Positions 12,497-28,760 of a stretch of DNA of 64,000 bases are shown one piece after another (the first letter of the stretch is position 1; each line of letters starts with the position of its first letter). The notes beneath the pieces were generated by a model, which saw only the letters and a list, made by a program, of their open reading frames with translations, was not told the origin of the DNA and did not search any database. Source of the stretch: an uncultured Hymenobacter sp. (GTDB taxonomy: Bacteria > Bacteroidota > Bacteroidia > Cytophagales > Hymenobacteraceae); the NCBI GenBank assembly GCA_913776615.1, contig CAJYPK010000040.1:1-64000 (forward strand), given 5' to 3'. The position numbers were made by a program, and so were the translations under genes.

Positions 12497-12840
12497 GGCA
12501 GGCTAAGAGGGGGGATACTGAACAGCCCGAAGGGAGGATGTTAGTACCAAATTAGGGCGACGGGGCGGTGCCCGGAGTATGCGGTTAGTGACCAACAACT
12601 GGCTTGAGAGTGGGCTGGGGCTATTTGCAGCGGCTTTTGGGGGGGAATTGCCTTGGCGAGAACGGGCTAGGCGGGTAGTCGCCCCGAAGCGAAAAAAGGC
12701 AGTTTTGGCGGGGTTGGTACGGCGAAAGCTGGCCTTGGTGTAAAAAGCTAGGTAGGCCCTGCTGGCCCCGATAGGTTTGAGGCATCCAAGTGAAAAGGCG
12801 CTCCCGATGGCGCGCACATTCCTTCGCTCGGGGTTGGCAT

Positions 12841-15318
12841 ATGAGGCAAAACGTTCGCTTTTTCAATCGCTGCGGTAGCCGGGTGGCGCTGGCTGGCAGC
12901 CTGGTGGGCTGGGCCTGCCTGGCCGCGGGGCCGAGCTTGGGCCAAGCCGCCCAGCCGGGTAGCCCGGCCCGCCCGGCGCAAACCGCCGGCGGTATCAGCG
13001 GTCAGGTGCGGAGCGCCACGGAGCCCGTGTCGTTTGCCACGGTGCTGCTGCTGGGGGCCGCCGACTCCACGGTGGTGCGGGCGCTGACCAGCGACGAGAA
13101 CGGCCACTTCGCCTTTACGGGCGTGGCGGCGGGCCGCTACCGGGTGCGGGCGTCCTTCGTGGCATATCGCACGGTGACTACGCCCGCGTTTCAGCTCGGG
13201 GCGCAGGCGGTGAATTTGGGGCCGCTACTCTTGCAGCCCAGCGACGTGGCCCTGGGCGAGGTGACCGTCACCGGCAGTAAGCCGCTCATCGAGCGCCGGC
13301 CCGACCGCCTCGTATTCAACGCCGGCAGCAGCGTGCGGGCCGCCACCGGCTCGGCCTGGGACCTGGTGCGCGTGACGCCCGGCGTAATGGCTACCTCGCA
13401 GGGCACGCTGAGCATCGCTGGCAAGAAAGGCGTGCAGGTGATGATCAACAACCGCCTGCGCCGCCTCTCGGCCGAGGAGCTGGCCGATTACCTCAAGCAG
13501 CTGCCCGGTACGGCGGTCGAAAGCATCGAGGTAATTACCAACCCGCCTGCCAACTACGACGCCGAGGGCAATGCCGGTCTACTCAACATCGTCACCAAGC
13601 ACAACGAAAACGAGGGCCTGAACGGTACCGCCCGGCTGGCTCCCGAGCAGGGCATTTTGCCCAAGCTCAGCGGCTCGGGCACGCTCAACTATCGCCGCGA
13701 CAAGCTCAACCTCTACGCCGCCTACAGTGGCCGCGTGGGCCGCGACCGCTTCAACGAGTCGGCCAAGCTGTTCTACGAAAATTCCATCTGGGACCAGCAA
13801 GATAAGATGACGCGCCGGGGCTACGGCCAGACGGGCTCGCTCGGGGCCGACTACTACATCAACAAGCGTAACGTGCTGGGAGTGCTACTCGAAGTGACGG
13901 CCTCCAACCGCCGCGCCGTCGATGACATCCGGGCCACGGCCTTCCGGCCCGGCCTGGCGCCGGACTCGATTTTGCTCACCAACGTCAATACCGGCATCGG
14001 GCGGGTACTGACTTCCATCAACACCAACTTCCGGCACGACCTGGCTACCCCGGGCGGCAGCCTGACCTTCGACCTGGACTACACGCCCTACCGGTCGAAC
14101 AACGACCAGCTGGCGCACACCGTAGCCCAGCGCCCCGAGCCCGGGGCCGGGCGGGTGACGGACTTCACGAGCTCCACTACCCAGCGCACCGACATCGGCT
14201 CCTTCAAAGTCGATTACGTGCGGCCGCTGGCTTCCGGCCTGCTGCTGGAGAGCGGGGCTAAGTTCAGCCTGAGCGACACCGACTACGACCTGCGCTTCGA
14301 CAATATCTACGGCGGCCAGCGGGTGAACGACCCCACCCGCACCAACCGCTTTTTCTACCGCGAAGCCATCGAGGCGGGCTACGCCACGGTGAGCCGCTCG
14401 GTGGGCAAGCTCAGCGCCAAGGCCGGCCTGCGGGCCGAATACACCCAGACGATGGGTCAGTCGTCGGCCACCGAGGTGCGCGTCAATCGCGATTATTTCC
14501 GACTGTTTCCCACGCTGTTTGCCCAGTACAAGGCCAGCGATACGCACGAGTACAAGTTCTCCTACGGGGTGCGCATCAACCGGCCGTCCTACGCCTACCT
14601 CAATCCGTTTGTCTTCTACCTCAGCCCGTACGTCACGGTGTCCGGCAATCCCTACCTGCGGCCGTCGTTCAGCCACACGGTGGAGGGCACCTACACGTTC
14701 CAGGGCAAGTACGAGCTGACGCTTTCGTACCAGCGCGTGCTCGACCCCTTCATGCAGGTGGCCCAGCTCAACAACACCACCAACGAAGTTGCCTTCGTGC
14801 GCCTCAACACCAACCCGCGCAACGTGTACAGCGCCACGCTCGTGGTGCCGGTGCAGGTGACTTCGGCCTGGAAAGTTGACGCCGTGCTCACGGGCTTTGC
14901 CCGCCAGGAAAGCATCATGTACCTGGGCTCCAGCCTCTCGTACTTCAAGCCCACGGTGATGGCCACGGCCACCAACACTTTCACCCTGCCCAAGAGCTTT
15001 GCCCTGCAAGTAGACCTCACCTACGTGTCGCCCTACCGCGAGTTTGTGCAGGTGATCGGGCCGGTGTCCGACGTTTCCTTCAGCGTGCGGAAGAAGTTTG
15101 CCAACGGCAGCTCGCTCAGCCTCAGCGTCAACGACATTTTTCTGGGTAATCCGCCGCATTACTCCACCGACTTTCCCGGCCAGCGGGGCGAGTACTACAA
15201 CACGAGCGAAACCCGCAACGTGGGCCTGGCCTACGTGTACCCCTTCGGCAATCAGAAGCTGAAAGCGGCCCGCGACCGGGCCACCGGCAATCAGGACGAG
15301 CGCGGGCGCACCAACTGA
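12841..15318 (+). CDS. TonB-dependent receptor-like outer membrane beta-barrel protein with carboxypeptidase-regulatory-like N-terminus
   Basis: GISGQVRSATEPVSFATVLLLGAADSTVVRALTSDENGHFAFTGVAAGRYRVRASF, plug VEVITNPPANYDAEGNAGLLNIVTK, C-terminal beta-barrel strands. Confidence 0.85.
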   Translation: MRQNVRFFNRCGSRVALAGSLVGWACLAAGPSLGQAAQPGSPARPAQTAGGISGQVRSATEPVSFATVLLLGAADSTVVRALTSDENGHFAFTGVAAGRYRVRASFVAYRTVTTPAFQLGAQAVNLGPLLLQPSDVALGEVTVTGSKPLIERRPDRLVFNAGSSVRAATGSAWDLVRVTPGVMATSQGTLSIAGKKGVQVMINNRLRRLSAEELADYLKQLPGTAVESIEVITNPPANYDAEGNAGLLNIVTKHNENEGLNGTARLAPEQGILPKLSGSGTLNYRRDKLNLYAAYSGRVGRDRFNESAKLFYENSIWDQQDKMTRRGYGQTGSLGADYYINKRNVLGVLLEVTASNRRAVDDIRATAFRPGLAPDSILLTNVNTGIGRVLTSINTNFRHDLATPGGSLTFDLDYTPYRSNNDQLAHTVAQRPEPGAGRVTDFTSSTTQRTDIGSFKVDYVRPLASGLLLESGAKFSLSDTDYDLRFDNIYGGQRVNDPTRTNRFFYREAIEAGYATVSRSVGKLSAKAGLRAEYTQTMGQSSATEVRVNRDYFRLFPTLFAQYKASDTHEYKFSYGVRINRPSYAYLNPFVFYLSPYVTVSGNPYLRPSFSHTVEGTYTFQGKYELTLSYQRVLDPFMQVAQLNNTTNEVAFVRLNTNPRNVYSATLVVPVQVTSAWKVDAVLTGFARQESIMYLGSSLSYFKPTVMATATNTFTLPKSFALQVDLTYVSPYREFVQVIGPVSDVSFSVRKKFANGSSLSLSVNDIFLGNPPHYSTDFPGQRGEYYNTSETRNVGLAYVYPFGNQKLKAARDRATGNQDERGRTN

Positions 15319-15454
15319 TTCCACCCTTTTTCCTTCTTCCTCCTTGACCTATCAGCGTGCTCCAGCCCGGAGGCCTACGGGTACCGGCATGCTCTAAGTG
15401 GCCAGTTGCTCAGGCCTGTATGAGCGAAAAAAACATTCCCTTTTTTCCAACCCC

Positions 15455-15670
15455 ATGAAAAACAAGAATCTGCTCTCGCTGCTCGAAAACGTGGCTCTCC
15501 AGCAAGAAAACGGTGATACCGCTGGCTTCGAAAACCTTGGTGTCGAGCTGGCTGCCAAGCTGAAAGGCGGTGCCGCTGGCCCCGACGACGAAGAATTCGC
15601 CTCGGTAAACGGCGTGTGCACCCAAAACACCGGCTGCGGCAAGGCCAGCAGCTCGCCGACTGTCGGCTAA
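15455..15670 (+). CDS. RiPP precursor peptide 1 (GG leader, CTQNTGCG core)
   Basis: MKNKNLLSLLENVALQQENGDTAGFENLGVELAAKLKGG|AAGPDDEEFASVNGVCTQNTGCGKASSSPTVG; paralogous to the next two ORFs and adjacent to rSAM and C39 exporter genes. Confidence 0.85.
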   Translation: MKNKNLLSLLENVALQQENGDTAGFENLGVELAAKLKGGAAGPDDEEFASVNGVCTQNTGCGKASSSPTVG

Positions 15671-15713
15671 GCCCTAACTACTAGCACTCCCTTTTCTCTC
15701 CACCTCTCTAGTT

Positions 15714-15726
15714 GCCGGTACCCGGC
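15714..15726 (+). promoter_or_regulatory. Conserved short hairpin upstream of precursor 2
   Basis: GCCGG-TAC-CCGGC, 8 nt before the ATG; same stem with changed loop upstream of precursor 3. Confidence 0.4.
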
Positions 15727-15734
15727 CTTACCTG

Positions 15735-15944
15735 ATGAAAAACAAGAATCTGCGCTCGCTACTCGACACCGTTGCCAGCCAACAAGAAAGCGGCGAAACG
15801 CCGGAAGTTGAAAACCTGGGCGCCGAGCTGGCCGCCAAGCTCAAGGGCGGCGTGGTCGGCGCGGGCACTGGTGCCGACGACGATGACTCGCTGGTGAAAA
15901 ACTCGGGGTGCACCCAGAATACGGGCTGCGGCGTGTCCGTCTAA
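15735..15944 (+). CDS. RiPP precursor peptide 2 (GG leader, CTQNTGCG core)
   Basis: MKNKNLRSLLDTVASQQESGETPEVENLGAELAAKLKGG|VVGAGTGADDDDSLVKNSGCTQNTGCGVSV. Confidence 0.85.
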   Translation: MKNKNLRSLLDTVASQQESGETPEVENLGAELAAKLKGGVVGAGTGADDDDSLVKNSGCTQNTGCGVSV

Positions 15945-15975
15945 CGCCGCTTCAATTTTCCTCCTTTTCTCAATT

Positions 15976-15988
15976 GCCGGCATCCGGC
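15976..15988 (+). promoter_or_regulatory. Conserved short hairpin upstream of precursor 3
   Basis: GCCGG-CAT-CCGGC, 10 nt before the ATG. Confidence 0.4.
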
Positions 15989-15998
15989 CCTATCAACC

Positions 15999-16214
15999 AT
16001 GAAAAACAAGAACCTGCTCTCGCTGCTCGAAACCGTTGCCCACCAGCAAGAAAACGGCGAAACTGCCGAATTTGAAAACCTTGGCCTCGAGCTGGCTGCC
16101 AAGCTGAAAGGCGGTGCCGCCGGCCCTGACGACGAGGAATTCGCCTCGGTAAACGGCGTGTGCACCCAGAACACCAGCTGCGGCAAGGCCAGCGTCTCGC
16201 CGACCGTGAGCTAA
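15999..16214 (+). CDS. RiPP precursor peptide 3 (GG leader, CTQNTSCG core)
   Basis: MKNKNLLSLLETVAHQQENGETAEFENLGLELAAKLKGG|AAGPDDEEFASVNGVCTQNTSCGKASVSPTVS. Confidence 0.85.
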   Translation: MKNKNLLSLLETVAHQQENGETAEFENLGLELAAKLKGGAAGPDDEEFASVNGVCTQNTSCGKASVSPTVS

Positions 16215-16234
16215 GCGGCGTCGCCTACGGTGAA

Positions 16235-16272
16235 AGCTCGCTGGCAGCCCCGAGGTGGGCTGCCAGCGAGCT
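16235..16272 (+). terminator. Strong hairpin after precursor array (attenuator/processing element candidate)
   Basis: Perfect 16-bp stem agctcgctggcagccc / gggctgccagcgagct, 6-nt loop, no T-tract after it. Confidence 0.65.
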
Positions 16273-16333
16273 AAAAGGTCACCACCCACTAGTTGTTTGA
16301 ACCGGCTCCGCCCGGGCTACCATTCCTACTTCT

Positions 16334-16600
16334 ATGCAACAGAAAAACCTCCAGTCGCTGCGCCATAAAGTAGCGGCGCAGCCCGCCGACGGCCAGGACG
16401 CGGAGCTGCTGACGCCGGAGCTCGCCGCCCAGCTCAAGAGCGGCTCGGCCTTCCCCACCGAGAGCCTGCTGACGGCCGAGCCCACCGGGCTGTGGCGCCT
16501 CGTCAGCCCCTGGCTGCACCGCCTCGAGCGGGCCATGACGCCCGCCGGCCGGATCGGCCAAGCCGCCGCCAGCCCGCGCGACCGGCCCAGCTACGACTAG
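16334..16600 (+). CDS. Divergent Cys-free RiPP precursor-like peptide 4
   Basis: MQQKNLQSLRHKVAAQPADGQDAELLTPELAAQLKSGSAFPTESLL...: leader resembles precursors 1-3 (KNLxSLxxxVAxQ, ELAAxLKxG) with an unrelated C-terminus. Confidence 0.65.
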   Translation: MQQKNLQSLRHKVAAQPADGQDAELLTPELAAQLKSGSAFPTESLLTAEPTGLWRLVSPWLHRLERAMTPAGRIGQAAASPRDRPSYD

Positions 16601-16656
16601 CCCCGCCGCCCCCGCCTCGTCAGCCCCATCTCTTCCTTTTCCTTTTCTCTGAACTC

Positions 16657-18018
16657 ATGGACTTCAAGCGCTCCTTTTACACCGTAGCCACCGGCCCGCT
16701 GGGTACCCCCGCCGCCGGCACCGACGGCCGCGCTATTCTTTTTTCCACGCGCACGGCCAAGACCCACGTGCTCAAGGCGCAGTATCTGGAGCACCTGGAC
16801 GCCGGGCGGTTCGACGAGCTGCCGGAGGAGGTGTTTGACGCCCTGGTGCAGGCCGAGGCCATCGTGCCGGCGCACGAAAACGAGCTGCAAGTAGTACTCA
16901 ACCGCTCCCGCTCGGCCGTCAACGACTCGCGCACGCTCAACTACGTCATCATGCCCTCGTCGCAGTGCCAGCTGGGCTGCGACTACTGCGGGCAGTCGCA
17001 CTCGAAGAGCTACATGAAGACCGACATCTACGATCAGATCGAGGCCCGGGCGCGCAAGATGATTGACCTGACCCAGCACAACGAGCTGCACGTGGGCTGG
17101 TTCGGGGCCGAGCCGCTCACCGGCCTGGCGCACATCCGCAAGGTGTCGCAGCGCCTCATGGCGCTGGCCGCCGAGCTGGGCATTGCCTACTCGGCCCACA
17201 TGGTCACCAACGGTCTGTCGCTCAAGCGGGCGGTGTTCGAGGAATTGTACCAGGAATACAAAATCAGCCGCTTCGAGGTGACGCTCGACGGCGACGCCGA
17301 GTCGCACGACAACCGCCGCCATACCAAGGCCGGCGAAAAGACTTTCGACCTCATTCTCAAAAACCTGGTGGACGTGGCCCACTCGCCCGTGTACGCCGGC
17401 AAGGGCTACCTGCTCACCATCCGCTGCAACGTGGACAGCCGCAACATCGACCGGGTGGTGCCGCTCATCAAGCTGCTGGCCAGCAAGGGGCTGAGCGATA
17501 AGGTACGCTTCTACACGGCTCCCGTGTATTCGTGGGGCAACGACGCCCACCTGCTTTCCTTGGAAAAAGCCGCGTATGGCGAGCGCGAAATCGACTTCAT
17601 GCTGGCCCAGCTGCAATACGGCTTCAAGGTGGTGCCCCTGCCCAGCCTGTCGCCCATCGTGTGCATCGCCGTGTCGAAAGACGCCGAGGTAATCGACTCG
17701 CAGGGGCAGATTTACAACTGCACCGAAATTCCGCTGGTGCCGCTCTACGAGAGCGCCGACTACCTGCTGGGCAACGTGCGCAAGCAGCCCGAAGTGTCGC
17801 TGCAAGAGCGCGCCTTCCACGACTGGCCCGGCGAAATCGAGAGCAACAAGGCCCTGTGGTGCTCGAAGTGCCGGATGCTGCCCGTGTGCGGCGGCGGCTG
17901 CCCCAAGGCCTGGCGCGAAGGCAACCCGCCCTGCCCCCCGGCCAAAGCCAACATCGAAGACCGGTTGGCCCTGGCTTACCTCTACACCAAAAACGGCCTC
18001 ACCACTTACGCCGACTAG
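16657..18018 (+). CDS. Radical SAM/SPASM peptide maturase
   Basis: CQLGCDYC (CX3CX2C); SPASM C-x13-G-x4-C (CIAVSKDAEVIDSQGQIYNC), CSKCRMLPVCGGGC (CX2CX5CX3C) and a later Cys. Confidence 0.9.
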   Translation: MDFKRSFYTVATGPLGTPAAGTDGRAILFSTRTAKTHVLKAQYLEHLDAGRFDELPEEVFDALVQAEAIVPAHENELQVVLNRSRSAVNDSRTLNYVIMPSSQCQLGCDYCGQSHSKSYMKTDIYDQIEARARKMIDLTQHNELHVGWFGAEPLTGLAHIRKVSQRLMALAAELGIAYSAHMVTNGLSLKRAVFEELYQEYKISRFEVTLDGDAESHDNRRHTKAGEKTFDLILKNLVDVAHSPVYAGKGYLLTIRCNVDSRNIDRVVPLIKLLASKGLSDKVRFYTAPVYSWGNDAHLLSLEKAAYGEREIDFMLAQLQYGFKVVPLPSLSPIVCIAVSKDAEVIDSQGQIYNCTEIPLVPLYESADYLLGNVRKQPEVSLQERAFHDWPGEIESNKALWCSKCRMLPVCGGGCPKAWREGNPPCPPAKANIEDRLALAYLYTKNGLTTYAD

Positions 18019-18020
18019 CC

Positions 18021-19052
18021 ATGACGATGCTTCACTCCGCGCCGCCGATCGTGCCCGCCGGCCTCGCGGCTTTGCACGCGCTGCTCAGCGCCGACGCCCT
18101 GCCCGCCGAGGCTGCCGCCCGCCGCCTCGCGCCCCGGCCCGACTTGTTCAACGACATCGTGGAGCAGGCCCGGCTGGCGCACTTCGACGTGACAACGGGC
18201 CGCGTCATCAAGTACATCATCGGGGCGTACGCTGTGGGCTTCCGGGCCGCCAAGGGCGGCGAGCTGCACACCGCCGCGATGGAGTTTGCCCGCGCCGAAG
18301 AGCTGCTGAAGGGGCCGCACACCGCGCACGACCCGCGGGCACTGGCCTTCCTGAATTGTCTTACGCTCCCGTATTGGGCTTATTATCACTACCGGCGGAG
18401 GGAGTTCGAGACTTCTATCGACCAGACCTTCGCCGCCATTGCCAACATCACGCAGCTGGAGGGCGAGATCCCGGTTTTTCACATGGCCCGCGTGCAGCAG
18501 CTGCACAACCTGAGCCGCGTGAGCTTCCGGCGCGGCGATACTGCCGCCGGGGCGCTGCTGGTGCAGGACCTGCTGCACTACCTCGCCACCGGCCAGCCGG
18601 GCAACCTGCCCGGCAGCTGGGCGCCCGAGCTACTGGCGCTTACGCCCCCTACGCTGCGGGCCGACATGTTCGGCCAGATTTTTCTGGAAATGGTCAGCCT
18701 GCTGCTGCGCGAGCCGGCGGCCGACCAGCGCCAGCAGCTATTTACCCTGGCCTTCGGCGAGCTGAGTAGCGTAGCGACGACGGCCGAGTTCTGGCCGCCC
18801 TACCAGGCGTGGCTCGCGGCCAGCGAGGCGCTGCTTTTCGGCGAGGAGCCCGCCTACGCGCCGCTGCTCGTGGCCTACCTGACCGCCGAGCCCGACCACC
18901 GTCTCGACGCGCTGCGCCTGGCGTTGCTGCTGGAGCTGCACCGCCGGCTGGCTGCGGCCACCGGCCCGGCGGCCGGGCTGCGGCCCCTGCTGCCCGCCTA
19001 CGCCCGCCGCACCCTCTGGCTCGACGCGCGCTCCCTGGCCCTGCTGGGGTAG
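18021..19052 (+). CDS. Orphan helical protein of the RiPP locus
   Basis: Complete 343-aa ORF starting 3 nt after the rSAM stop codon; helix-rich, TPR-like impression, no family recognised. Confidence 0.7.
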   Translation: MTMLHSAPPIVPAGLAALHALLSADALPAEAAARRLAPRPDLFNDIVEQARLAHFDVTTGRVIKYIIGAYAVGFRAAKGGELHTAAMEFARAEELLKGPHTAHDPRALAFLNCLTLPYWAYYHYRRREFETSIDQTFAAIANITQLEGEIPVFHMARVQQLHNLSRVSFRRGDTAAGALLVQDLLHYLATGQPGNLPGSWAPELLALTPPTLRADMFGQIFLEMVSLLLREPAADQRQQLFTLAFGELSSVATTAEFWPPYQAWLAASEALLFGEEPAYAPLLVAYLTAEPDHRLDALRLALLLELHRRLAAATGPAAGLRPLLPAYARRTLWLDARSLALLG

Positions 19053-19098
19053 GGGAGAGGCATCGTCTTGCTTTCCGTTTCTTTTCCGCCCCCTCGTT

Positions 19099-21339
19099 AT
19101 GCAGTTTAAATTCTACCGGCAACACGATGCCATGGACTGCGGGCCAACCTGCCTCAAGATGGTGGCCCGCCACTACGGCCGCACCCTCGACCTGGAGTAC
19201 CTGCGCAGCATCTGCTACCTCAACTCGGAAGGCGTGAGCATCCTCAGCGTGTCGGAGGCCGCCGAGCAAATTGGGCTGAAAACGCTGATGCTCAAGACCA
19301 GCTACGAGTACCTGGTCGAAAACGTGCCCTTGCCCTGCATCCTGCACTGGAACCAGAGTCACTTCATCATCCTGCTCGAAACTCACCAGACCGGCCTGCT
19401 CGGCCGCCTGCGCGGCGAGCCCGAGCGCATCACCATCGCCGACCCCAGCCACGGGGTCGTGACCATCGACCGGGCCACCTTCCTGCGGGGCTGGGCCAGC
19501 TCGGCCGACCACAAGGGCGTGCTGCTGGCCGTGGAGCCCTCGCGGCACTTCTACGTGGCCGAGGCCCCGGCCGAACACAGCCAGGGTATGGCCTTCCTGG
19601 GGCGCTACATCAAGCCTTATTACGGCTACCTGCTGCAACTGCTGCTGGGTATGACGCTGGGTAGCCTCATCTCGCTGGCCTTCCCGTTCCTGACGCAGTC
19701 GCTGGTCGATTTCGGCATCACCCGCCAGAACGAGAGCTTCATCGTGCTTATCCTGCTGGCGCAGCTCCTGTTGCTGCTCGGCCAGCTGATGGTGAGCGTG
19801 GTGCGCAACTGGATTCTGCTGCACATGAATACCCGCATCAGCATCAGCATTATCTCCGACTTTCTGCTCAAGCTGATGCGCCTGCCGGTGCGCTTCTTCG
19901 ATAGTAAGTCGGTGGGCGACATCACCCAGCGCATCAGCGACCACCACCGCATCGAGGTGTTTTTGACGGGTAATTCCATCAATACCCTGTTTTCGCTGGT
20001 CAACCTGCTGGTGTTTTCCGTGGTGCTGGGCTTGTACAGCCTGCCCATCCTGGGGCTGTTCGTGGCGGGTAGCTTGCTGATGCTGGGCTGGGCGCTGCTG
20101 TTCATGCGCCGGCGCAGCCACCTCGACTACCTGCGCTTTCAGGGCCAGCGCGACACCCAGGATAGCCTCTTCGAGATTATCCACGGCATGCAGGAAATCA
20201 AGCTCAACCACAGCGAAAGCTACCGCCGCTGGGAGTGGGAGAAAGTGCAGGTCAAGCTGTTCCGGCTCAACAACCGCAGCCTGGCCCTCGACCAGGCGCA
20301 GGACCTGGGCTCGTTCTTCTTCAACCAGGTCAAGAACGTGGTAATCACCTACCTGGCGGCCCGGTTGGTTATTCAGCACCAGCTCACGCTGGGCATGATG
20401 CTGAGTATTTCCTACATCATCGGGCAGATGAATGGCCCGCTCGACCAGCTGCTGAGCTTCGTCAAAATCGCCCAGGATGCCAAGCTCAGCCTTGACCGCC
20501 TGCGCGAGGTGCACGGCCGCCCCGACGAGGAGGGCGACCCCGTGACTGACGAGCAGAGTGCCCACCACGCGCTGCTGGCCGATCACAAAACCTGCCGCCC
20601 CGGCGACATCGTGCTCGAAAACGTGTCGTTCCGCTTCGAAGGCCCCAGCTCGCCGCTCGTGCTCAACGACGTCAGCCTGGTGATTCCCGAGGGCAAGGTG
20701 ACGGCCATCGTGGGCTCCAGCGGCAGCGGTAAAACTACGTTGCTCAAGCTGTTGCTCAAGTTTTACCCACCCAACGGCGGCCACATCGCCATCGGTGATG
20801 CCGACTTTGCCAGCATCTCGCCGCGCTGGTGGCGGCGGCAGGTGGGCACGGTGCTGCAAGAAGGCTACGTGTTTTCGGATACCATCGCCCGCAACATCGC
20901 CATGAACTCCGACGAGATCGACGCGGCCCGCATGCAGTACGCCGTGCGGGTGGCCAACATCGGCGAGTACGTGAAAAGCCTGCCGCTCCGCTTCACCACC
21001 AAAATCGGGCGCAGCGGCAACGGCCTCAGCGGCGGCCAGAAGCAGCGCCTGCTCATTGCGCGGGCCGTGTACAAAGACCCCCGCTACCTGTTTTTCGACG
21101 AGGCCACCAGCGCCCTCGACGCCAACAACGAAAGCGTGATCATGCACAACCTCCACGAGTTTTTCCACGGCCGCACCGTGGTCGTGGTGGCCCACCGCCT
21201 GAGTACCGTGCGCCACGCCGATCAGATCGTGGTGCTCGAAAAGGGCCAGGTGGTAGAAACCGGCTCGCACGAAGAGCTGGTGCTGCGCCGGGGACGGTAC
21301 TTCGACTTGGTGCGCAATCAGTTGGAGCTGGGGAATTAG
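19099..21339 (+). CDS. Peptidase-domain (C39) ABC transporter
   Basis: C39 motifs QHDAMDCGPTCLKMV, LHWNQSHFIIL, ITIADPSHG; Walker A VGSSGSGKTT, signature LSGGQKQR, Walker B YLFFDEATSALD. Confidence 0.95.
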   Translation: MQFKFYRQHDAMDCGPTCLKMVARHYGRTLDLEYLRSICYLNSEGVSILSVSEAAEQIGLKTLMLKTSYEYLVENVPLPCILHWNQSHFIILLETHQTGLLGRLRGEPERITIADPSHGVVTIDRATFLRGWASSADHKGVLLAVEPSRHFYVAEAPAEHSQGMAFLGRYIKPYYGYLLQLLLGMTLGSLISLAFPFLTQSLVDFGITRQNESFIVLILLAQLLLLLGQLMVSVVRNWILLHMNTRISISIISDFLLKLMRLPVRFFDSKSVGDITQRISDHHRIEVFLTGNSINTLFSLVNLLVFSVVLGLYSLPILGLFVAGSLLMLGWALLFMRRRSHLDYLRFQGQRDTQDSLFEIIHGMQEIKLNHSESYRRWEWEKVQVKLFRLNNRSLALDQAQDLGSFFFNQVKNVVITYLAARLVIQHQLTLGMMLSISYIIGQMNGPLDQLLSFVKIAQDAKLSLDRLREVHGRPDEEGDPVTDEQSAHHALLADHKTCRPGDIVLENVSFRFEGPSSPLVLNDVSLVIPEGKVTAIVGSSGSGKTTLLKLLLKFYPPNGGHIAIGDADFASISPRWWRRQVGTVLQEGYVFSDTIARNIAMNSDEIDAARMQYAVRVANIGEYVKSLPLRFTTKIGRSGNGLSGGQKQRLLIARAVYKDPRYLFFDEATSALDANNESVIMHNLHEFFHGRTVVVVAHRLSTVRHADQIVVLEKGQVVETGSHEELVLRRGRYFDLVRNQLELGN

Positions 21340-21420
21340 TGAAGGGTAGGAGGGTATGAAGGTAGTCTCGCGCCACTGGTTTTTAGGAGAGTTCATGACT
21401 CTTCTTTGCCCTAGCGTGGG

Positions 21421-21548
21421 CGCCTCACCCCCCGGCCCCCTCTCCGAAAAGGAGAGGGGGAGCCGACCGTAATTAAGCATCATAAGCGACTCAAACAGTC
21501 ATTAGGCTCCCCCTCTCCTTTTCGGAGAGGGGGTCGGGGGGTGAGGCG
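21421..21548. repeat. Nested palindromic repeat (44-bp arms)
   Basis: 21421-21464 and 21505-21548 are inverted copies with one mismatch; each arm contains the palindrome ccccctctccgaaaaggagaggggg. Confidence 0.85.
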
Positions 21549-21614
21549 CACACGTTAGGATAGGAAAAATTATAAAATTAAAGTTTTTACAATCTCTCAA
21601 AACCGCTAGTTAGT

Positions 21615-22097
21615 ATGCCAGAGCAATTCGACTTGCACCACCGCGAAGTGCAGGAAATCATGGGTCGCATGCCGGGCTGGGTGACGCGCTGGGCCTCGGC
21701 GGGGCTGCTGGGTGGCTTCCTGGTGCTGGCCGGCGCAACGCGCCTGGTGCGGTTTCCCGACGAGGTACCCGCCGCGGTCGTCGTTACGCGGGAGGCGGCG
21801 CAGGCACCGCGCATCCGGGTGCAGGTAGCCGTGGAGCAGGCGGCGGCCGTCCGGCCCGGGCAGGCCGTACTCATCGACCTGCAAGCCTACCCGGCCCGCC
21901 GCTACGGCTACCTGCCGGCCACCGTGCGCGAGGTGCTGCCCTTCACGGCGGCCCGCGCGGTGGAGGTGCGCGTGGCCGCCCCGGCCGATTGGCGCACGAC
22001 CACGGGGCAGGTCATTGCCAGCCAGCCGGTATTGAGGGGAACGGGCACGATTACGGTGAGTGAAAGCACGCTGTGGCAGCGGGTATTTCGGCAGTAG
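21615..22097 (+). CDS. Short HlyD/membrane-fusion-like protein
   Basis: Single N-terminal TM then VAVEQAAAVRPGQAVLIDLQAYPARRYGYLPATVREVLPF; 160 aa, directly after the ABC exporter. Confidence 0.6.
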   Translation: MPEQFDLHHREVQEIMGRMPGWVTRWASAGLLGGFLVLAGATRLVRFPDEVPAAVVVTREAAQAPRIRVQVAVEQAAAVRPGQAVLIDLQAYPARRYGYLPATVREVLPFTAARAVEVRVAAPADWRTTTGQVIASQPVLRGTGTITVSESTLWQRVFRQ

Positions 22098-22274
22098 TCC
22101 CGGAGCCTTAGGGTTGAAGTATAGCAGCGCGGTAGTAATTGTCCGGCTAAGTAGCTAGGGGAGTAGTTAGTACAGGTCATAAGGAGTACTTTGCGGGCTG
22201 ATAGTGAGCCGACCACCCATTCCTACTGGGGGCGTCGGCTCCTGTGGTTGCTCACGCTGCTCCCCGTCCTGCCC

Positions 22275-25200
22275 GTGCTACAAAATCTTTACTCCTTCCA
22301 CAAGCAACTCATTCTCCGTTTACCCGCCCAGCCGTTTGCGCAGGACATTGCCGAGGCCGACATCCAAGCCAGCCTACACGATGCTCGGTTTATGGAGAGC
22401 ATCTACCTGGCCTCGCCCGCGCTGCACGACGAGTGCGACAAGTGGCGCCGGGGTGAGCTCACCGACGCCCGCAAAGTAGCCCGGCTGCGTAGCTCGCTCA
22501 CGCGCTACTACGTGCGGGCGCGCAGCCGATGTACACCCTTCGGGCTGTTTGCGGGCTGCGCCGTGGCCGAGTGGGGGCCGGCCAGCCAGGTGGTGGTCGC
22601 CGCCGACAAGGCCAGCCGCCACACCCGCCTCGACATGCACTACCTCTGCGACCTGGCCCAGCAGCTGGCCGCCCACCCGGCCGTGCGGCCCCACCTGCGC
22701 TACTGGCCCAACACGAGCCTGTATCAGTTGGGAGAGGAGTTTCGCTTCGTGGAGCACCACTACGCGGCGGGCCGGCGGGTGCATCAGCTCAGCGCGGTGC
22801 AGGCCACGCCCTACCTGCAACGGCTGCTGGCCGCCGCCCAGGGCGGCGCCAGCTACCCGGCCCTGGTAGCCCTGCTGAGCGAAGCCGAGCCGGACGAGGC
22901 TACGCAGTTTATCGACGCGCTCATCGAGGCCCAGGTATTGATGCATGAACTGGAGCCGACCGTGACGGGCGAGGAGTTCTTTACCCACGTGCTGGCCGTG
23001 CTGGCGCGCGTGGGCGAGCAGTCGCCCGCCATCGCCGCCATTGCCGACCACCTCGAAGCCGTGCGCCAACAGCTCGCCGCCATCGACCAGAGCCCGGTCA
23101 ACCTCGCCCGGGCGTACACCAACATCGTGCTGGCCCTGACCCCGTTGGGGGTGGCCCTGGAGCCCGGCAAACTCTTTCAGGTAGACGCGGTGCCCGGCCT
23201 GGGCGAGTCGGCGACCCTGGATGCGGCGTGGCAGCGCGACCTGCTGGAAGCCGTTGAGGTACTGGCCCGCCTGGCGCCGCTGCCGGTGCAGCCCCGGCTG
23301 GCGGCGTTTCGCCAGCGCTTTCAGGCGCGCTACGAAACCCAGGAGGTGCCCCTGCTCGAAGCCCTTGACAACGAGAGTGGCATTTCCTACACCGAGTACG
23401 GCAGCAGCAGCTATTCGCCCCTCGTGCACGACTTAGTAACGGCCCCCGCGGGGGCGGCCTCGTCGAGCAGCGGCCGCGCCCGGGTGCAGCAGCAATTGCA
23501 CGAAAAGCTGCGCGAGGCCGAGCGCACCCAGCAGTACAGCCTCGACCTGGCCCTGGCCGACCTGCCACCCGTTTCGCCTACCAGCCCGCCGCTGCCGCCC
23601 TCGCTGGCCATCCTGTTTCGGGTGCTGGATGGGCAAAAGCTGCTCCTCGAAAGCGTGGGGGGCTCCAGCGCCGTCAACCTGCTGGGGCGCTTTGCCCACG
23701 CCGACCCGGCCATTGCTTCCCTTATTGAAGAGGTGGCCCGGCACGAGCAGGCCCACAACCCGGGCGTGGCCTTCGCCGAAATTTGCCACCTGCCCGTGAG
23801 CCGCGCCGGCAACCTGTTGCAGCGGCCCAGCTTCCGGGCGCTCGAAATTCCCTACCTGGCGCAGTCGGCCCTGCCCGCCGAAGGCCAGGTGCCGGTGCAA
23901 GACCTGCTGCTGTCGGTACGCCACGGCGAGCTGCGGCTGCGCTCGCGCACTACCGGCCAGGTGATTATACCCCGCCTGGGCACGGCCCATAATTTCACCC
24001 ACGAGGCGCTGCCCGTCTACCAGTTTCTCTGCGACCTGCAAACCCAGGGCTTGCAGGCCCAACTGGGGGTGGGGTGGGAGGCCGGGCCGGGCTCCGCCCG
24101 CTTTGTACCCCGCCTCACCTACCGCCGCGTGGTGCTGGCCCCCGCCTCGTGGCAGTTCACCGCTGCCGACCTGGCCCCGCTGCTGACCGATGAGGTAACG
24201 CTGGCCGCCCGCTGGCCGGCCTTCTGCCAGCAGTGGCGACTGCCCCGTTTTTTCACCCTGGCCGACGGCGACAACGAGCTGCTGGTCGATACCGCCAGCC
24301 CGCTGCTGGTGGCCACCTGGCTCGACACCGTCCGCCAGCGGCCGCAGGTGCTGCTCAAGGAGTTTTTGTTTGATCCCGCCGCCAGCCCCGTGCGCGACGC
24401 GGCGGGCCGGCCCTACCTGCCCCAGGTGCTGGCGGTGCTGCTGCGCCAGGCGCCGTGCTACCCGGGGCTGCCCCAGCCGCCGGCCCGGGCCGCGCAGCAG
24501 CTCGTGCAGCGCGAGTTTCCGCTGGGCTCCGAGTGGCTGTACTACAAGCTCTACTGCGGCCAGAAGGTAGCCAACCGCGTGCTACTGAGTGTGGTGCAGC
24601 CCTTAGCCGAAGAGCTGCTGGCGCAGGGCCTGATTGATAATTGGTTTTTTATTCGTTACGCCGACCCCGACAACCACCTGCGCCTGCGCCTGCACTTGTC
24701 CGACGTGGCGGGCCTGGGCGCCGTGGTGCAGCTGGTGGCGGCTCAGTTGCAGCCGCACTGCACCAGCGCGACCATCTGGAAGGTGCAAACCGACACCTAC
24801 CGCCGCGAGCTGGAGCGCTACGGTCCCCAGGCCATCGGCCTGGCCGAGCAGCTGTTTGGCTACCAGAGTACCGCCTACCTGGCCTGGCTGGCTACCGAGC
24901 CACCGGCCGACGACGACTGGCTGTTCGGCCTCACGGCCATGGCCGAGCTGCTGCACGCGTTCGACTACACTTTCCCGCAAAAAATAACCCTGCTGGCCGG
25001 GTTGCGTGAGTCGTTCGGCCGGGAGTTTGGGCTCGATAAAAAGCTTAAGCTTCAGCTCGATGCCAAGTTTCGGCAGGTGCGCCCGGCCATGCAACAGGCG
25101 CTGAGCGAAGTTGAAAGCTGGCCGCCGCCCGCCCCGCTCCGGGCCCTGGCCAGCCAGCTGGTGAGCCTGGCCGCCGAAGGCCAGCTCGCGGTGAGTACCG

Positions 25201-25337
25201 ACCACCTGCTCGGGGCCTACCTGCACATGCTGCTCAACCGCATTATTCCGGCCGAGGCCCGGCTGCACGAACTGGTGCTCTACGATTTTCTGGGGCGCCA
25301 CTACCAGTCGCAGCAGGCCTTACAGCGCGCTGGCTAG
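22275..25337 (+). CDS. LanB-type lantibiotic dehydratase (full length)
   Basis: LYSFHKQLILRLPAQPF N-terminus, RARSRCTPFGLFAGCAVAEW, C-terminal SpaB_C-like GSEWLYYKLYCGQKVANRVLL...NWFFIRYADPDNHLRLRLHL. ORF track opens at TTG 22191; GTG 22275 fits the family N-terminus better. Confidence 0.88.
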   Translation: MLQNLYSFHKQLILRLPAQPFAQDIAEADIQASLHDARFMESIYLASPALHDECDKWRRGELTDARKVARLRSSLTRYYVRARSRCTPFGLFAGCAVAEWGPASQVVVAADKASRHTRLDMHYLCDLAQQLAAHPAVRPHLRYWPNTSLYQLGEEFRFVEHHYAAGRRVHQLSAVQATPYLQRLLAAAQGGASYPALVALLSEAEPDEATQFIDALIEAQVLMHELEPTVTGEEFFTHVLAVLARVGEQSPAIAAIADHLEAVRQQLAAIDQSPVNLARAYTNIVLALTPLGVALEPGKLFQVDAVPGLGESATLDAAWQRDLLEAVEVLARLAPLPVQPRLAAFRQRFQARYETQEVPLLEALDNESGISYTEYGSSSYSPLVHDLVTAPAGAASSSSGRARVQQQLHEKLREAERTQQYSLDLALADLPPVSPTSPPLPPSLAILFRVLDGQKLLLESVGGSSAVNLLGRFAHADPAIASLIEEVARHEQAHNPGVAFAEICHLPVSRAGNLLQRPSFRALEIPYLAQSALPAEGQVPVQDLLLSVRHGELRLRSRTTGQVIIPRLGTAHNFTHEALPVYQFLCDLQTQGLQAQLGVGWEAGPGSARFVPRLTYRRVVLAPASWQFTAADLAPLLTDEVTLAARWPAFCQQWRLPRFFTLADGDNELLVDTASPLLVATWLDTVRQRPQVLLKEFLFDPAASPVRDAAGRPYLPQVLAVLLRQAPCYPGLPQPPARAAQQLVQREFPLGSEWLYYKLYCGQKVANRVLLSVVQPLAEELLAQGLIDNWFFIRYADPDNHLRLRLHLSDVAGLGAVVQLVAAQLQPHCTSATIWKVQTDTYRRELERYGPQAIGLAEQLFGYQSTAYLAWLATEPPADDDWLFGLTAMAELLHAFDYTFPQKITLLAGLRESFGREFGLDKKLKLQLDAKFRQVRPAMQQALSEVESWPPPAPLRALASQLVSLAAEGQLAVSTDHLLGAYLHMLLNRIIPAEARLHELVLYDFLGRHYQSQQALQRAG

Positions 25338-25352: not shown

Positions 25353-26084
25353 TTACTTACGGCCGCCCACCACGTTTTGCTGGAGCGTTTCGAAAAAGGC
25401 GGCGCGGTACGTGTCGCCCAGCGGCACGTAGGCCTTCAGGCCCTTGAAGAATATCTGGTTGCCATCCAGCGCCTGAATCTTATTCAGGGCCACCAGGTAC
25501 GACTTGTGCACCCGCACAAACTGGCGGCTCGGCAGGCGCTCCTCCAGGTCTTTCATGTTGAGCAGCGTCACGATGCGGTCCTCCGCCGTGTTGATGGACA
25601 CGTAGTTCTTCATGCCCTCGACGTAGATAATATCGTCGAAGTTGATTTTGGTCATCTTGCCCTTGCTCTCCGTCTTCACGAAGATGTAGTCGGCTGGCTT
25701 TTCCGGGGCCTGCCAGCGGCTCGACGGCTCGATCGAAGCGTTGAGGGCTTTCTGGGCCGTTTTCAGGAAGCGCTCAAACGCGATGGGTTTGAGCAGGTAG
25801 TCAAAGGCTTCGAGCTCGAAGCTCTCCACGGCAAACTCGCTGTAGGCCGTGGTAAACACGATCCGGGTTTTGTCCTTGAGCAGGCGGGCGGCATCCAGGC
25901 CCGAAATCTGGGGCATGTGGATGTCCATAAACAGCAGATCCACGGGCTGATTCTGCACCACGCTCAGCGCCTCAATGGGGTCGGTGGTGCTACCTACCAG
26001 CGTGAGGAAGGGCGTCTTCTCGATGAACGTGCGCAGAATATCCAGCGCGCTTTGCTCGTCGTCTACTATAAAGCAGGAAATCAT
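25353..26084 (-). CDS. LytTR-family response regulator
   Basis: Receiver MISCFIVDDEQSALDIL, LLFMDIHMP; LytTR DIIYVEGMKNYVSINTAEDRIVTLLNMKDLEERLPSRQFVRVHKSYLVAL. Confidence 0.95.
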   Translation of the reverse strand: MISCFIVDDEQSALDILRTFIEKTPFLTLVGSTTDPIEALSVVQNQPVDLLFMDIHMPQISGLDAARLLKDKTRIVFTTAYSEFAVESFELEAFDYLLKPIAFERFLKTAQKALNASIEPSSRWQAPEKPADYIFVKTESKGKMTKINFDDIIYVEGMKNYVSINTAEDRIVTLLNMKDLEERLPSRQFVRVHKSYLVALNKIQALDGNQIFFKGLKAYVPLGDTYRAAFFETLQQNVVGGRK

Positions 26085-26087
26085 CGC

Positions 26088-27107
26088 TTAAAGGTCCAGC
26101 GTTAGATGGCAGGTATAAAACTCCGGTTCGTCGGTGGTCGTGAGCGTGTGGCGGCCGGGGTAGATCAGGGCCAGGCGCTTGCGCGTATTGGCGAGCCCAA
26201 TGCCCGTGCTTTTCTCCTTGGGGCCGTTGCGTTTCTTGTTATGCGTCAGGAAAGTTAGCTGATTTTGCACAACCGTCAGGCGAATGGCGAGCGGGTGGGC
26301 CGGGTCGGCCAGCTCGCCGTGCTTGAAGCAATTTTCGACAAACGTAATGAGTACCAGCGGCAGAATGAGCAGAAAATGCGTGCTGCCTTCCACGCTAAAA
26401 TCTATCTGCAATTTATTATTAAAGCGCAGTTGATTGATTTCAATATAATTGCGCAGGTGCTTTACTTCCTGGGCCAGCATCACCTTGCCGTTGACGTCTT
26501 CGTGCAGGGCGTAGCGCATGGTCTCCGAAAGCAGCAAAATGCCCTTGGCGGCGCTGGCCGAATGCGGGTAGACCTGGGCGTATAAAAAATTCAGGGAGTT
26601 AAATAAAAAGTGCGGATTAATCTGATTTCTTAGAAAAGCGAGGTTGGCTTCCAGCAGGCTGCGCTCGGCCAGGCGCAGCTGCTCTTCTTGCTGCCGCTTC
26701 TGCACTTCCAGCGCAATGGTGCTGCGGGCAAACCAGTAGCCCGCGCTGGCAAACAGAAAAAACGTGCCCCGGTACACCGAGGCAAACCACAGCGAGCGGG
26801 GCGTCGGCGCCGCAGTTGGCAGCATGTACTCGGTAAGTCCGGTGCGCAGCAGGGCGTAGCCCGCCAGCAGCCCCAGCGCCGCTAGCAGGTACCAGCCCCC
26901 GTGGCGGCGGGCGTACACGCGGGGCAGCAATAACCCACTATTGCTGTAAAAGAGGGCCGCATTAAGCGCATAATTCAGGAGTACGAACGTCCAGTTGAAA
27001 GTCTGGGAGTTGGTAGCCAGAATGATAGATTGCTCATAAATGATAAAGGCCACCCAAGCCAGGCAGTGAAACAGGAGTAATCTTACTTGTGGGCGGTGGA
27101 GCTGCAT
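26088..27107 (-). CDS. LytS-type sensor histidine kinase
   Basis: NLAFLRNQINPHFLFNSLNFLYAQ phospho-acceptor region, VLITFVENCFKHG and GIGLANTRKRLALIY; start taken at MQLHRPQVRLLL. Confidence 0.9.
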   Translation of the reverse strand: MQLHRPQVRLLLFHCLAWVAFIIYEQSIILATNSQTFNWTFVLLNYALNAALFYSNSGLLLPRVYARRHGGWYLLAALGLLAGYALLRTGLTEYMLPTAAPTPRSLWFASVYRGTFFLFASAGYWFARSTIALEVQKRQQEEQLRLAERSLLEANLAFLRNQINPHFLFNSLNFLYAQVYPHSASAAKGILLLSETMRYALHEDVNGKVMLAQEVKHLRNYIEINQLRFNNKLQIDFSVEGSTHFLLILPLVLITFVENCFKHGELADPAHPLAIRLTVVQNQLTFLTHNKKRNGPKEKSTGIGLANTRKRLALIYPGRHTLTTTDEPEFYTCHLTLDL

Positions 27108-27185: not shown

Positions 27186-27217
27186 AGCCGGTTGGTACCT
27201 AGCAAAAGCCGGTTGGT
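27186..27217 (+). promoter_or_regulatory. Putative LytTR regulator operator (direct repeat)
   Basis: AGCCGGTTGGT at 27186-27196 and again at 27207-27217; perfect 11-bp repeats, 21 bp start to start, between the kinase gene and the Cys-free precursor gene. Confidence 0.6.
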
Positions 27218-27249
27218 GTAAACTACTAGGGGGCGAAAGCAGGGGTAGG

Positions 27250-27257
27250 TAGGTTTG
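27250..27257 (+). promoter_or_regulatory. Bacteroidota -7 promoter element candidate
   Basis: TAGGTTTG matches TAnnTTTG; no convincing -33 TTG seen. Confidence 0.4.
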
Positions 27258-27317
27258 TCTCAGGGTAAGCGCTACCCCACTCTCTCACCTCTGTCTCATT
27301 TCCTTTTCTGCACGACG

Positions 27318-27470
27318 ATGAAAAATTTTGACGCTCCCGCCAAGTTCAAGCTCACCAAAACGATCATCACCCGCTACACCAAGCCGCAGGCCAGCGGTAA
27401 TCCCATGAGCACGAGCGATGTCACTGTGAAGACCACGGTATCGGTCAGCTCCATCTACGGCGGCTTCTAG
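27318..27470 (+). CDS. Cys-free lanthipeptide-like precursor peptide
   Basis: MKNFDAPAKFKLTKTIITRYTKPQASGNPMSTSDVTVKTTVSVSSIYGGF: class I-like leader (KFKLTKTII), Ser/Thr-rich C-terminus, no Cys; immediately before LanC-like gene. Confidence 0.75.
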   Translation: MKNFDAPAKFKLTKTIITRYTKPQASGNPMSTSDVTVKTTVSVSSIYGGF

Positions 27471-27476
27471 CGGCTC

Positions 27477-27510
27477 GGCCGGGGGCGGGCCAATGGGTCC
27501 GCCCCCGGCC
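27477..27510 (+). terminator. GC-rich hairpin between precursor and LanC-like gene
   Basis: 12-bp perfect stem ggccgggggcgg / ccgcccccggcc, 10-nt loop, no T-tract; starts 6 nt after the precursor stop. Confidence 0.6.
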
Positions 27511-27578
27511 GGGGATGCGTGCTCGCTGCCGGCTACCCCCTGTTCTATTTTCCTTCCCCGGCTTTGAGGCGATATCCC

Positions 27579-28760
27579 ATGTCCACGCTCTTTTCCTTTC
27601 GACAGCCCGGTGGTGCGCCACCCGTAGCCGCGCCCGAGCCGGCCGTGCCCGCGGCGCGGCGCAGCTGGGAAGCCGTGCACGCCCTGCTGACTGGCCCGGC
27701 GGCGGAGGCCTGCCCACCCCCGGCTTTTGCCAACCTGACGGCGTACCACTATTGCGTGCACCAGGCGTTGGAGCGCGGCAAGCCATTGCCCCCGATGCTG
27801 AGCCGGCGCTTCGACCAGCTGGCAGCCCAGCTGGCGCAGCAGGCCAACCAAGGCACGTGGCCCGTCGCGCAGCTCGACCAGGCTTGCGTGGCGGCGTGGC
27901 TCAACACCCAGCTGGCGACCAGCGGGCACGCCCGCCGGCTGACTATTTCGACCCGGCTCGATGAGGCCTTGTGCGCCGAGGCCCACCACTTACACCAGCA
28001 GCCCGATGCCGAGAGCCAGCGCCGGTTTTGGCGCGTGCTCCGCTACTTCAGCCTGCGCTTGCCCGCCGCCGCCGAAGCGCTGCCCGTACTGCAGGCGCTG
28101 CTGGCCCAGCCGCCCACTTCGTCGCCGGCCGAGCCGCTGGCCCTCGGGCTGGTCGAAGGCTTGGCGGCCGAGCTGCTGCTGCTGCTGAAGCTGCACAAAG
28201 CCGGGCTGCGGCACGCGAGCCTCGTGGCACGCATTCGTACCGGCATCAGCAAGCTGTTGGCCGTGCGGCACCCGGTCGATTTTTTGGAGGGGCACTACTC
28301 GGTTTTTCCCCACCAATTGCTGCCCGCTTCGGAGGAAGGAACCTTCAGCGCCGAGCTGAGCTGGCAGCGCGGCGACCTGGGGCAGTCGCTGCTGCTGTAC
28401 AAGGCGCACGAGCTGCTGCAAGACGACGAGCTCATCAAGATAGCCGAGCTGGTGGGGCTCAACACGCTGCTGCGCACCACTGCGTCGGCCACCGGCGTGG
28501 CCACGGCGGAGCTGGCTCGCGGGGCCGCCGGGCTTGCCCACCTGTACCGCAAGCTGTATCAGGCCAGCCGCTTGGCGGCCTACCGCGATGGCTACCAGCA
28601 CTGGCTCGGGCAAACCCACACCCTACTGCGCCAAGACCTGGCGGCCGGGCGCTACCAGGGGCAGGAGGGCGATTTGCTGCACGGCTTGGTTGGCATCGGC
28701 TTAGTCACGGTAGCGAGCCTGACCGACACCGAGCTGGGCTGGGATGCCCTCGTACTGTAG
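27579..28760 (+). CDS. LanC-like cyclase homologue lacking zinc ligands
   Basis: LanC-like landmarks GLVEGLAAELLLLLKL, SWQRGDLGQSLLLYKAHEL, LARGAAGLAHLYRKLYQ, LLHGLVGIGLVTVASL; the expected Cys and Cys-His ligands are replaced. Confidence 0.8.
   Translation: MSTLFSFRQPGGAPPVAAPEPAVPAARRSWEAVHALLTGPAAEACPPPAFANLTAYHYCVHQALERGKPLPPMLSRRFDQLAAQLAQQANQGTWPVAQLDQACVAAWLNTQLATSGHARRLTISTRLDEALCAEAHHLHQQPDAESQRRFWRVLRYFSLRLPAAAEALPVLQALLAQPPTSSPAEPLALGLVEGLAAELLLLLKLHKAGLRHASLVARIRTGISKLLAVRHPVDFLEGHYSVFPHQLLPASEEGTFSAELSWQRGDLGQSLLLYKAHELLQDDELIKIAELVGLNTLLRTTASATGVATAELARGAAGLAHLYRKLYQASRLAAYRDGYQHWLGQTHTLLRQDLAAGRYQGQEGDLLHGLVGIGLVTVASLTDTELGWDALVL

Follow-up and report, generated by a model that had tools for sequence, protein, structure and literature searches.

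A candidate peptide-signalling or self-inducing peptide system with a zinc-less LanC-fold protein in Hymenobacter and some relatives

Described systems and the layout of the locus

The module described here has much in common with nisin biosynthesis (NisB/NisC with NisR/NisK), namely a LanB, a LanC-fold partner and a two-component system that is induced by the product, the induction being predicted in our case. It differs from the nisin system in that its LanC lacks the zinc ligands and His212, its precursor is Cys-free, its regulator is of the LytTR type and its kinase of the LytS type, and exporter, protease and immunity genes are not conserved with it. A LanC fold without zinc ligands is also found in class III LanKC enzymes such as ThurKC, where cyclisation requires Phe and Asp in the columns of Cys330 and His331 (PMC10604976). 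Those domains are fused to lyase and kinase domains and their Phe/Asp pair is functional, whereas the module LanC stands alone beside a LanB and its replacements are not conserved. LanCs that lack the C-CH triad have been reported from Bacteroidales clusters, one of which carries an HK/RR pair; these clusters lack a LanB and employ radical SAM enzymes, and the authors suggested that the proteins are closer to glycosidases (PMC10352776). A zinc-less LanC in Bacteroidota is thus by itself not new.

Class I lanthipeptides of Bacteroidota (LxLxKx5L leaders, PMC7268733; ChmA/RuiA, PMC9993889; pinensins) share the phylum, the LanB type and an FxLxK-like leader motif with the module, but their cores contain Cys, and GG leaders combined with C39 peptidases are frequent among them. 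Zinc sites are present in those canonical LanCs of this type that we examined. Lanthipeptide-type enzymes that adjoin Cys-less cores are known from the cyanotins, whose enzyme is a class II LanM and whose precursors are unrelated to those of the module (PMC7268733). Agr/Com quorum sensing (AgrA, ComE) resembles the module in its modified peptide, membrane kinase and LytTR regulator, and also in the direct-repeat operator in the peptide's own promoter and in the candidate small-RNA targets. The module differs by its Gram-negative host, the LanB-type modification and the LytS-type kinase, and its signalling is a prediction. To our knowledge, no two-component system is linked to the cyanotins. 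Linaridins are linear dehydrated RiPPs, but they are dehydrated by linaridin-type enzymes and not by a LanB, which is conserved in the module.

The stretch of DNA analysed here (the window, 64 kb) carries on its forward strand the gene of a full-length class I lantibiotic dehydratase LanB (22275..25337, reading frame open from 22191; PF04738 484 bits, PF14028 227 bits). Between LanB and the precursor peptide, the opposite strand encodes a LytTR-type response regulator (25353..26084; PF00072 and PF04397) and a LytS-type membrane histidine kinase whose N-terminal half, comprising the membrane/sensor part, is divergent (26088..27107; His_kinase PF06580, 78 bits). The kinase gene is divergent from the gene of the 50-aa precursor peptide (27318..27470, forward strand), and a promoter region of about 210 bp is common to both. 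Downstream on the forward strand lies the gene of a LanC-fold pseudo-cyclase of 393 aa (27579..28760), which lacks the zinc ligands and His212. An earlier note on this DNA had dealt with the peptide, LanB and the LanC-like protein; the two-component system between LanB and the peptide, the LytTR-type operator and the conservation of both go beyond it.

LanB is the end (25337) of a near-continuous gene run on the forward strand that begins at 12790 with the gene of an outer-membrane beta-barrel protein (12790..15318; CarboxypepD_reg and OMP_b-brl_3, PF14905 306 bits). The run contains three peptides that each have a GG leader and two Cys (15458-15670, 15735-15944 and 15999-16214), a shorter, Cys-free fourth ORF (16334-16600), a radical SAM/SPASM maturase (16651-18018; nearest to TIGR04463, far below its cut-off), an uncharacterised ORF (18018-19052), a C39-peptidase ABC exporter (19099-21339) and an HlyD-like fragment (21615-22097). 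The GG peptides and the maturase (15458-18018) probably belong to a separate RiPP pathway that neighbours the LanB/LanC module, since their homologues are nearly absent from the other module loci: searching these loci returned GG-peptide homologues at L060 only and the maturase gene at none. It is possible that the C39 exporter is common to both pathways.

LanC-fold protein, precursor peptides and dehydratase

The assignment of the LanC-like protein is weak by sequence (PF05147 21.1 bits, cut-off 23.2 bits), and a phmmer search of PDB sequences matched no LanC chain. Its AlphaFold2 model (pLDDT 85) has the nisin cyclase NisC as top PDB fold match (2g02, TM 0.66/0.64), with LanC-like proteins ranking next. 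Judged by the modelled fold, an alpha/alpha toroid most like LanC, the assignment is firm. The earlier note had located the motifs SWQRGDLG (28359-28382) and LARGAAGLAHLY (28512-28547) in this protein and concluded that its zinc-site residues are lost. Both motifs lie where it had placed them, and the alignment confirms the loss: the columns of NisC Cys284, Cys330, His331 and His212 hold Q, A, R and E, whereas C, C, H and H were found in 14/14 zinc-type LanCs from the same family. The complete set occurs in no member of the module family, so that the loss applies to the whole clade of 29 proteins. Conserved Cys or His residues were also sought in the ligand columns of the module-family alignment and none was found, which rules out a hidden alternative metal site at these positions. 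A class III-like Phe/Asp replacement can be dismissed as well, as these residues are not conserved in the clade (Ala and Arg in the window protein).

The ligand and His212 columns drift (column-entropy percentiles 0.50-0.87), whereas the structural W and D within these motifs hardly vary. Additionally, the module clade has a fixed patch of its own, AELVGLNTLLR (residues 289-299), which zinc LanCs mostly lack; its residues E290, L291 and N295 are nearly absent from the latter. Together, the drifting ligand columns, the invariant W and D and the new patch indicate that selection acts on the fold and not on the zinc site. Mean LanC identity within the module family is 0.40. Very probably, as far as the alignments tell, the LanC-like protein works without zinc/thiol catalysis.

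A tree of 69 LanCs unites the 29 module LanCs, all without the zinc site, in one clade with 100/100 support. This clade is nested inside the zinc LanCs, which means that the site was lost rather than primitively absent. The module-like LanC of L115 is more distant and stands apart from the module clade on a long branch. Relatives of LanC were found in 37 of 201 family genomes searched, and those of 27 genomes were assigned to the module clade, which excludes that the window protein is a sequence curiosity of one genome. A second, separate clade of 17 zinc-less proteins (group C, support 100/99) shows that loss of the zinc site happened on two or more occasions. Members of group C, found at L065-L067, L074, L076 and L112-L118 and in the window's own genome at L068:7854-9215, keep His212 and mostly carry Tyr in the His331 column. 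In several genomes they stand in tandem with a zinc LanC, together with C39 exporters and Cys-containing GG precursors, and such tandems might form LanC heterodimers.

The peptide encoded at 27318-27470, MKNFDAPAKFKLTKTIITRYTKPQASGNPMSTSDVTVKTTVSVSSIYGGF, contains no Cys and has nine Ser/Thr among its 21 C-terminal residues, as the earlier note had stated; this richness has a P of ~1e-4 when compared with the composition of neighbouring proteins. Its leader, MKN..AKFKLTKTIITRYTK, covers about residues 1-25 and is followed by a Ser/Thr-rich, Cys-free core that ends in [TS]-S-[ILV]. An FxLxK-like leader motif is present; the window peptide has no NCBIfam match, and a relative scores 11.7 bits against a cut-off of 22 bits (lant_leader_L1a). 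Homologous peptides were found in the equivalent place at all Hymenobacteraceae module loci and at L110/L111, and every complete-module Hymenobacteraceae locus has an ORF of 42-62 aa immediately 5′ of the LanC-like gene. The family has a conserved leader of the form MKN..AKFxFxKTxVTxFxK without a GG site, and variable, Ser/Thr-rich cores that end in [TS]-S-[ILV]. Ser and Thr make up 34% of the core in the 29-peptide family, and at L045 the precursors are present in three tandem copies.

At background Cys frequency, one 50-aa peptide would be Cys-free with a chance of ~63%. A single Cys-less peptide is therefore to be expected by chance, and the informative part is the contrast with canonical precursors. 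None of 18 precursors associated with zinc-type LanCs of the same family is Cys-free (mean 3.1 Cys, GG leader), compared with 20 of the 29 module peptides (Fisher p = 1.4e-6). The total of 11 Cys in 1474 residues of the module peptides corresponds to the background rate; Cys in these precursors is irrelevant more than purged. One or two Cys occur in the precursors of seven loci with a zinc-less LanC (L045, L047, L048, L049, L052, L054 and L057). Since six of these seven belong to one derived subclade, Cys probably arrived later at these loci. The proposal of the earlier note that peptide and cyclase have lost thiol chemistry together holds for most precursors and fails as a strict rule, given these seven loci and group C, which lost zinc and kept Cys. 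Formation of (methyl)lanthionine in cis is impossible for a Cys-free core. The product need not be thioether-free at every locus, as some precursors do carry Cys.

Equivalents of NisB R83, R87, T89, D121, D299, R464, R786, R826 and H961 are present in 30/30 LanBs, and that of E823 in 29/30; among the 30 are the LanB of L119 and, for L041/L042, the closest LanB, which belongs to another type. By these residues, LanB is catalytically complete for both glutamylation and elimination, and it is likely that it acts on the Cys-free peptide. The window's own genome encodes one more full LanB, in whose vicinity no LanC was detected (L069, C56), and a long LanC-domain ORF that adjoins a LanB fragment (L070, C46).

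Conservation of the module and its predicted operator

LanB, the LytTR regulator, the histidine kinase, the peptide and LanC occur together at 23 Hymenobacteraceae loci in varied genomic contexts, and the same five-gene set is present at L110/L111 in another family of the same order. In a more distant family, the gene set recurs at L119:7563-14054 with a LanC whose zinc site is intact and a candidate precursor that contains a single Cys; the ancestral module may plausibly have looked like this. A search for more module relatives with an intact zinc site yielded just one genome, of poor quality, and scanning its 18-kb region (L122) for the operator found none. At the H. siberiensis-type loci L041/L042, the peptide and LanC are kept and the module LanB or LytTR gene was not detected; L063 is likewise a partial locus. 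Mean pairwise identity in the module family is 0.80 for the response regulator, 0.72 for the kinase half and 0.42 for the sensor half, and the reading frames are open in more than 20 species. The open frames, the fixed LanB active sites, the operator at 25/25 loci and the new invariant LanC residues point to purifying selection on the zinc-less form. No conserved dedicated exporter, leader protease or immunity gene was found among the module loci compared. The lack of a conserved exporter and leader protease counts against a secreted signal, which needs both.

The predicted operator of the window, CCGGTTGGT-N12-CCGGTTGGT-GTAA (27188..27221, forward strand), is located in the divergent promoter of the kinase and peptide genes. 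Its two directly repeated 9-bp halves are identical and stand 12 bp apart, and 32 bp downstream it is followed by TAGGTTTGT (27250..27258, forward strand), which matches the Bacteroidota -7 box TAnnTTTG. Direct repeats with such spacing have the geometry of LytTR-domain sites. The family operator, NGGGTTGGT-N12-NGGGTTGGTGTAAT with a TAnnTTTG box, was found in the kinase-peptide promoter of 25/25 loci tested, its consensus having been chosen after some of these loci had been inspected. It lies 115-156 bp from the peptide ATG (p<=0.015 per locus, dinucleotide shuffles), and the equivalent box, TAcgTTTG, stands at the same distance in most loci. A PWM built from these sites returned 49 sites in the regions and 0 in a reversed-sequence control; it also scored 38.9 and 44.4 bits at the peptides of L110/L111, both outside its training set. 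Across whole genomes, a site within one mismatch was present in 21/27 module-bearing and 6/25 module-less genomes, and five of the latter six are weak chance matches that score below 9 bits. The window's own genome (6.08 Mb), in which operators were counted by pattern and not by the matrix, has with 0-2 mismatches only the peptide site and a second direct-repeat site upstream of the outer-membrane beta-barrel gene (12710..12750, forward strand; PWM 28.5 bits). No site was seen at the peptide of the module-like locus L115. That the LytTR protein binds the direct repeat is, given this pattern, quite probable. The same repeat could be common to other LytTR proteins. A canonical LanB at L045 is also preceded by it, and at L041/L042 and L068 it occurs not far from GG precursors that belong to other clusters. 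Which genes stand together, that the LanC site is dead and LanB intact, and that the operator is there and conserved, can be read directly from the sequences.

The outer-membrane beta-barrel gene (12790..15318) is a candidate member of the regulon; homologues of its product are encoded at 16/31 loci, several of them preceded by the same site. Another is flxA, encoding the flexirubin tyrosine ammonia-lyase, which lies within ~10 kb of the module at L039:9828-11423, L057:6150-7748 and L064:1698-3299. All three module genomes that have flxA carry the site ~105 bp upstream of its start, and no operator was found at flxA of the sole module-less genome with this gene. In two bacterial families, NusG-like genes, recognised by reading the sequence, stand directly 3′ of the site (L110:10460-11032, L111:4976-5548 and L160:1879-2394) and possibly lead polysaccharide operons. 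The site also precedes two families of intergenic stretches that have no convincing ORF and are closed by strong intrinsic terminators, and no Rfam match was obtained for these candidate small RNAs. The first type (L161:1521-1740, L163:1545-1770, L165:1530-1730, L172:1584-1850, L174:6312-6550 and L183 ~1470-1735) consists of a LytTR-type site, a promoter box, a conserved GATACAATTGGTTTGGAAGAGAA and a strong terminator. A covariance model of five sequences identified one further copy, in G119, where the site stands at an unchanged distance. Hits above 90 bits were confined to module-bearing genomes; only these were used, as many weak matches of 30-42 bits in both kinds of genome are apparently terminator-like. 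The second type (L158, L159, L162, L164, L168, L170, L175 and L176) comprises one or two tandem AT-rich candidate transcripts, each behind a LytTR-type site and ended by a terminator. They are located on the 3′ side of a conserved 358-aa gene, with which they converge. Both families may be transcribed as small RNAs.

Proposed mechanism and alternative readings

The conserved two-component system and the operator in the peptide promoter suggest an autoregulated signal or a self-inducing peptide. LanB would glutamylate core Ser/Thr and then eliminate, which would yield a linear or non-thioether peptide containing dehydrobutyrine/dehydroalanine; we infer dehydration from the intact enzyme. The earlier note had proposed a linear dehydrated peptide, with the LanC-like protein as a chaperone, scaffold or non-zinc enzyme; a linear or non-thioether dehydrated peptide and a non-zinc LanC scaffold are the most likely chemistry. 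The LanC-fold partner would be a non-catalytic scaffold that binds the leader and LanB and presents the core. In nisin biosynthesis, one NisC and one prenisin assemble with a NisB dimer, and this assembly requires the FNLD box of the leader (PMC5294574). Since NisC is thus known to have a structural role, a protein that has lost its chemistry and kept its fold would most simply be a scaffold. The mature peptide would act on the membrane histidine kinase encoded beside its gene, and the kinase would activate the LytTR regulator. The latter would bind the direct repeat upstream of the peptide-LanC operon, presumably in a positive feedback. With a linked kinase and an operator in the peptide's own promoter, an autoregulatory loop is likely. 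The regulon would extend to the outer-membrane protein in this genome and to flxA, the candidate small RNAs and the NusG-like genes in relatives. We consider the explanation as a whole, a self-regulated RiPP module, to be evenly poised between right and wrong.

The pairing of peptide and kinase was assessed by partial Mantel tests, which are liberal. Once LanB and the kinase half are corrected for, core distance tracks the distance of the sensor half (partial r 0.41, p 0.0005), and leader distance does not (0.10, p 0.12). With another distance measure and more controls, the core-sensor correlation is 0.28, and it is gone among distant pairs, where core distances saturate. This covariation is suggestive only as a sign of pairing. 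We lean slightly towards the peptide being the ligand of the adjoining kinase.

In its most specific form, this would be a quorum-sensing-like system of Bacteroidota: the signal would be a linear dehydropeptide made by LanB with a pseudo-LanC as assembly scaffold, and the LytTR regulator would drive the peptide operon, two small-RNA families and genes for pigment and the cell surface, as a Gram-negative analogue of agr/RNAIII. We put this forward tentatively. Almost as well as a pure signal, a self-inducing antimicrobial would fit the data: a dehydrated antibacterial peptide that induces its own synthesis in the manner of nisin, with killing and not signalling under selection. The class I lanthipeptide enzymes, the variable cores behind a conserved leader, the precursor triplet of L045 and the sites at a canonical LanB and near GG precursors of other clusters would all suit such a compound. 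However, the module is not accompanied by a conserved immunity gene or dedicated exporter, the peptide and kinase are among its few constant parts, and the predicted regulon includes pigment, small-RNA and NusG-like genes. It seems a possible but rather doubtful reading.

Less likely still is a metal-independent cyclase, in which the LanC-fold protein would close rings without zinc, using Lys, Tyr, His or carbon nucleophiles or an occasional Cys. ThurKC is able to cyclise although Ser726/Phe770/Asp771 replace its zinc ligands (PMC10604976), the clade has acquired an invariant patch, and the cores of seven loci contain Cys. The columns of ThurKC Phe770 and Asp771, however, hold eleven and seven different residues in the module family, and His212 is lost in every member.

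The earlier note had named a second, Cys-containing precursor dedicated to this LanB/LanC pair as a possible objection, and Cys-containing GG precursors (15458-16214) do exist upstream. They could be the substrates of LanB/LanC, together with the radical SAM enzyme and the C39 exporter, the Cys-free peptide being incidental; the continuous gene run from 12790 to 25337 on one strand, the two Cys of each GG peptide and the homologous peptides at L060 speak for this. However, the GG peptides adjoin the maturase and exporter, nearly all other loci pair LanB/LanC with a peptide of the Cys-free type and have neither maturase nor GG peptides, and the conserved order is peptide-LanC-HK-RR, so that we regard this reading as improbable. 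Decay of a lanthipeptide cluster, with zinc site and Cys lost in a dying pathway, might be suggested by the divergent LanC and the partial loci L041/L042 and L063, but it is very improbable in view of frames open across more than 20 species, LanB active sites and operators retained throughout (E823 in all but one LanB) and new invariant LanC residues.

The combination of a zinc-less LanC with an intact LanB, precursors that mostly lack Cys, a two-component system and a conserved operator seems to be new, as no description of it was found in the open-licence literature searched; the same literature yielded no peptide quorum-sensing system in Bacteroidota. In Hymenobacter, a Gram-negative bacterium of soil and rock, and in some relatives, the module thus resembles a so far undescribed system based on a peptide signal or a self-inducing peptide. 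It provides a natural, selectively maintained non-catalytic LanC, so that a non-catalytic role of LanC becomes directly testable. If the signalling reading is true, Bacteroidota would have a RiPP signal whose operator and regulon are defined.
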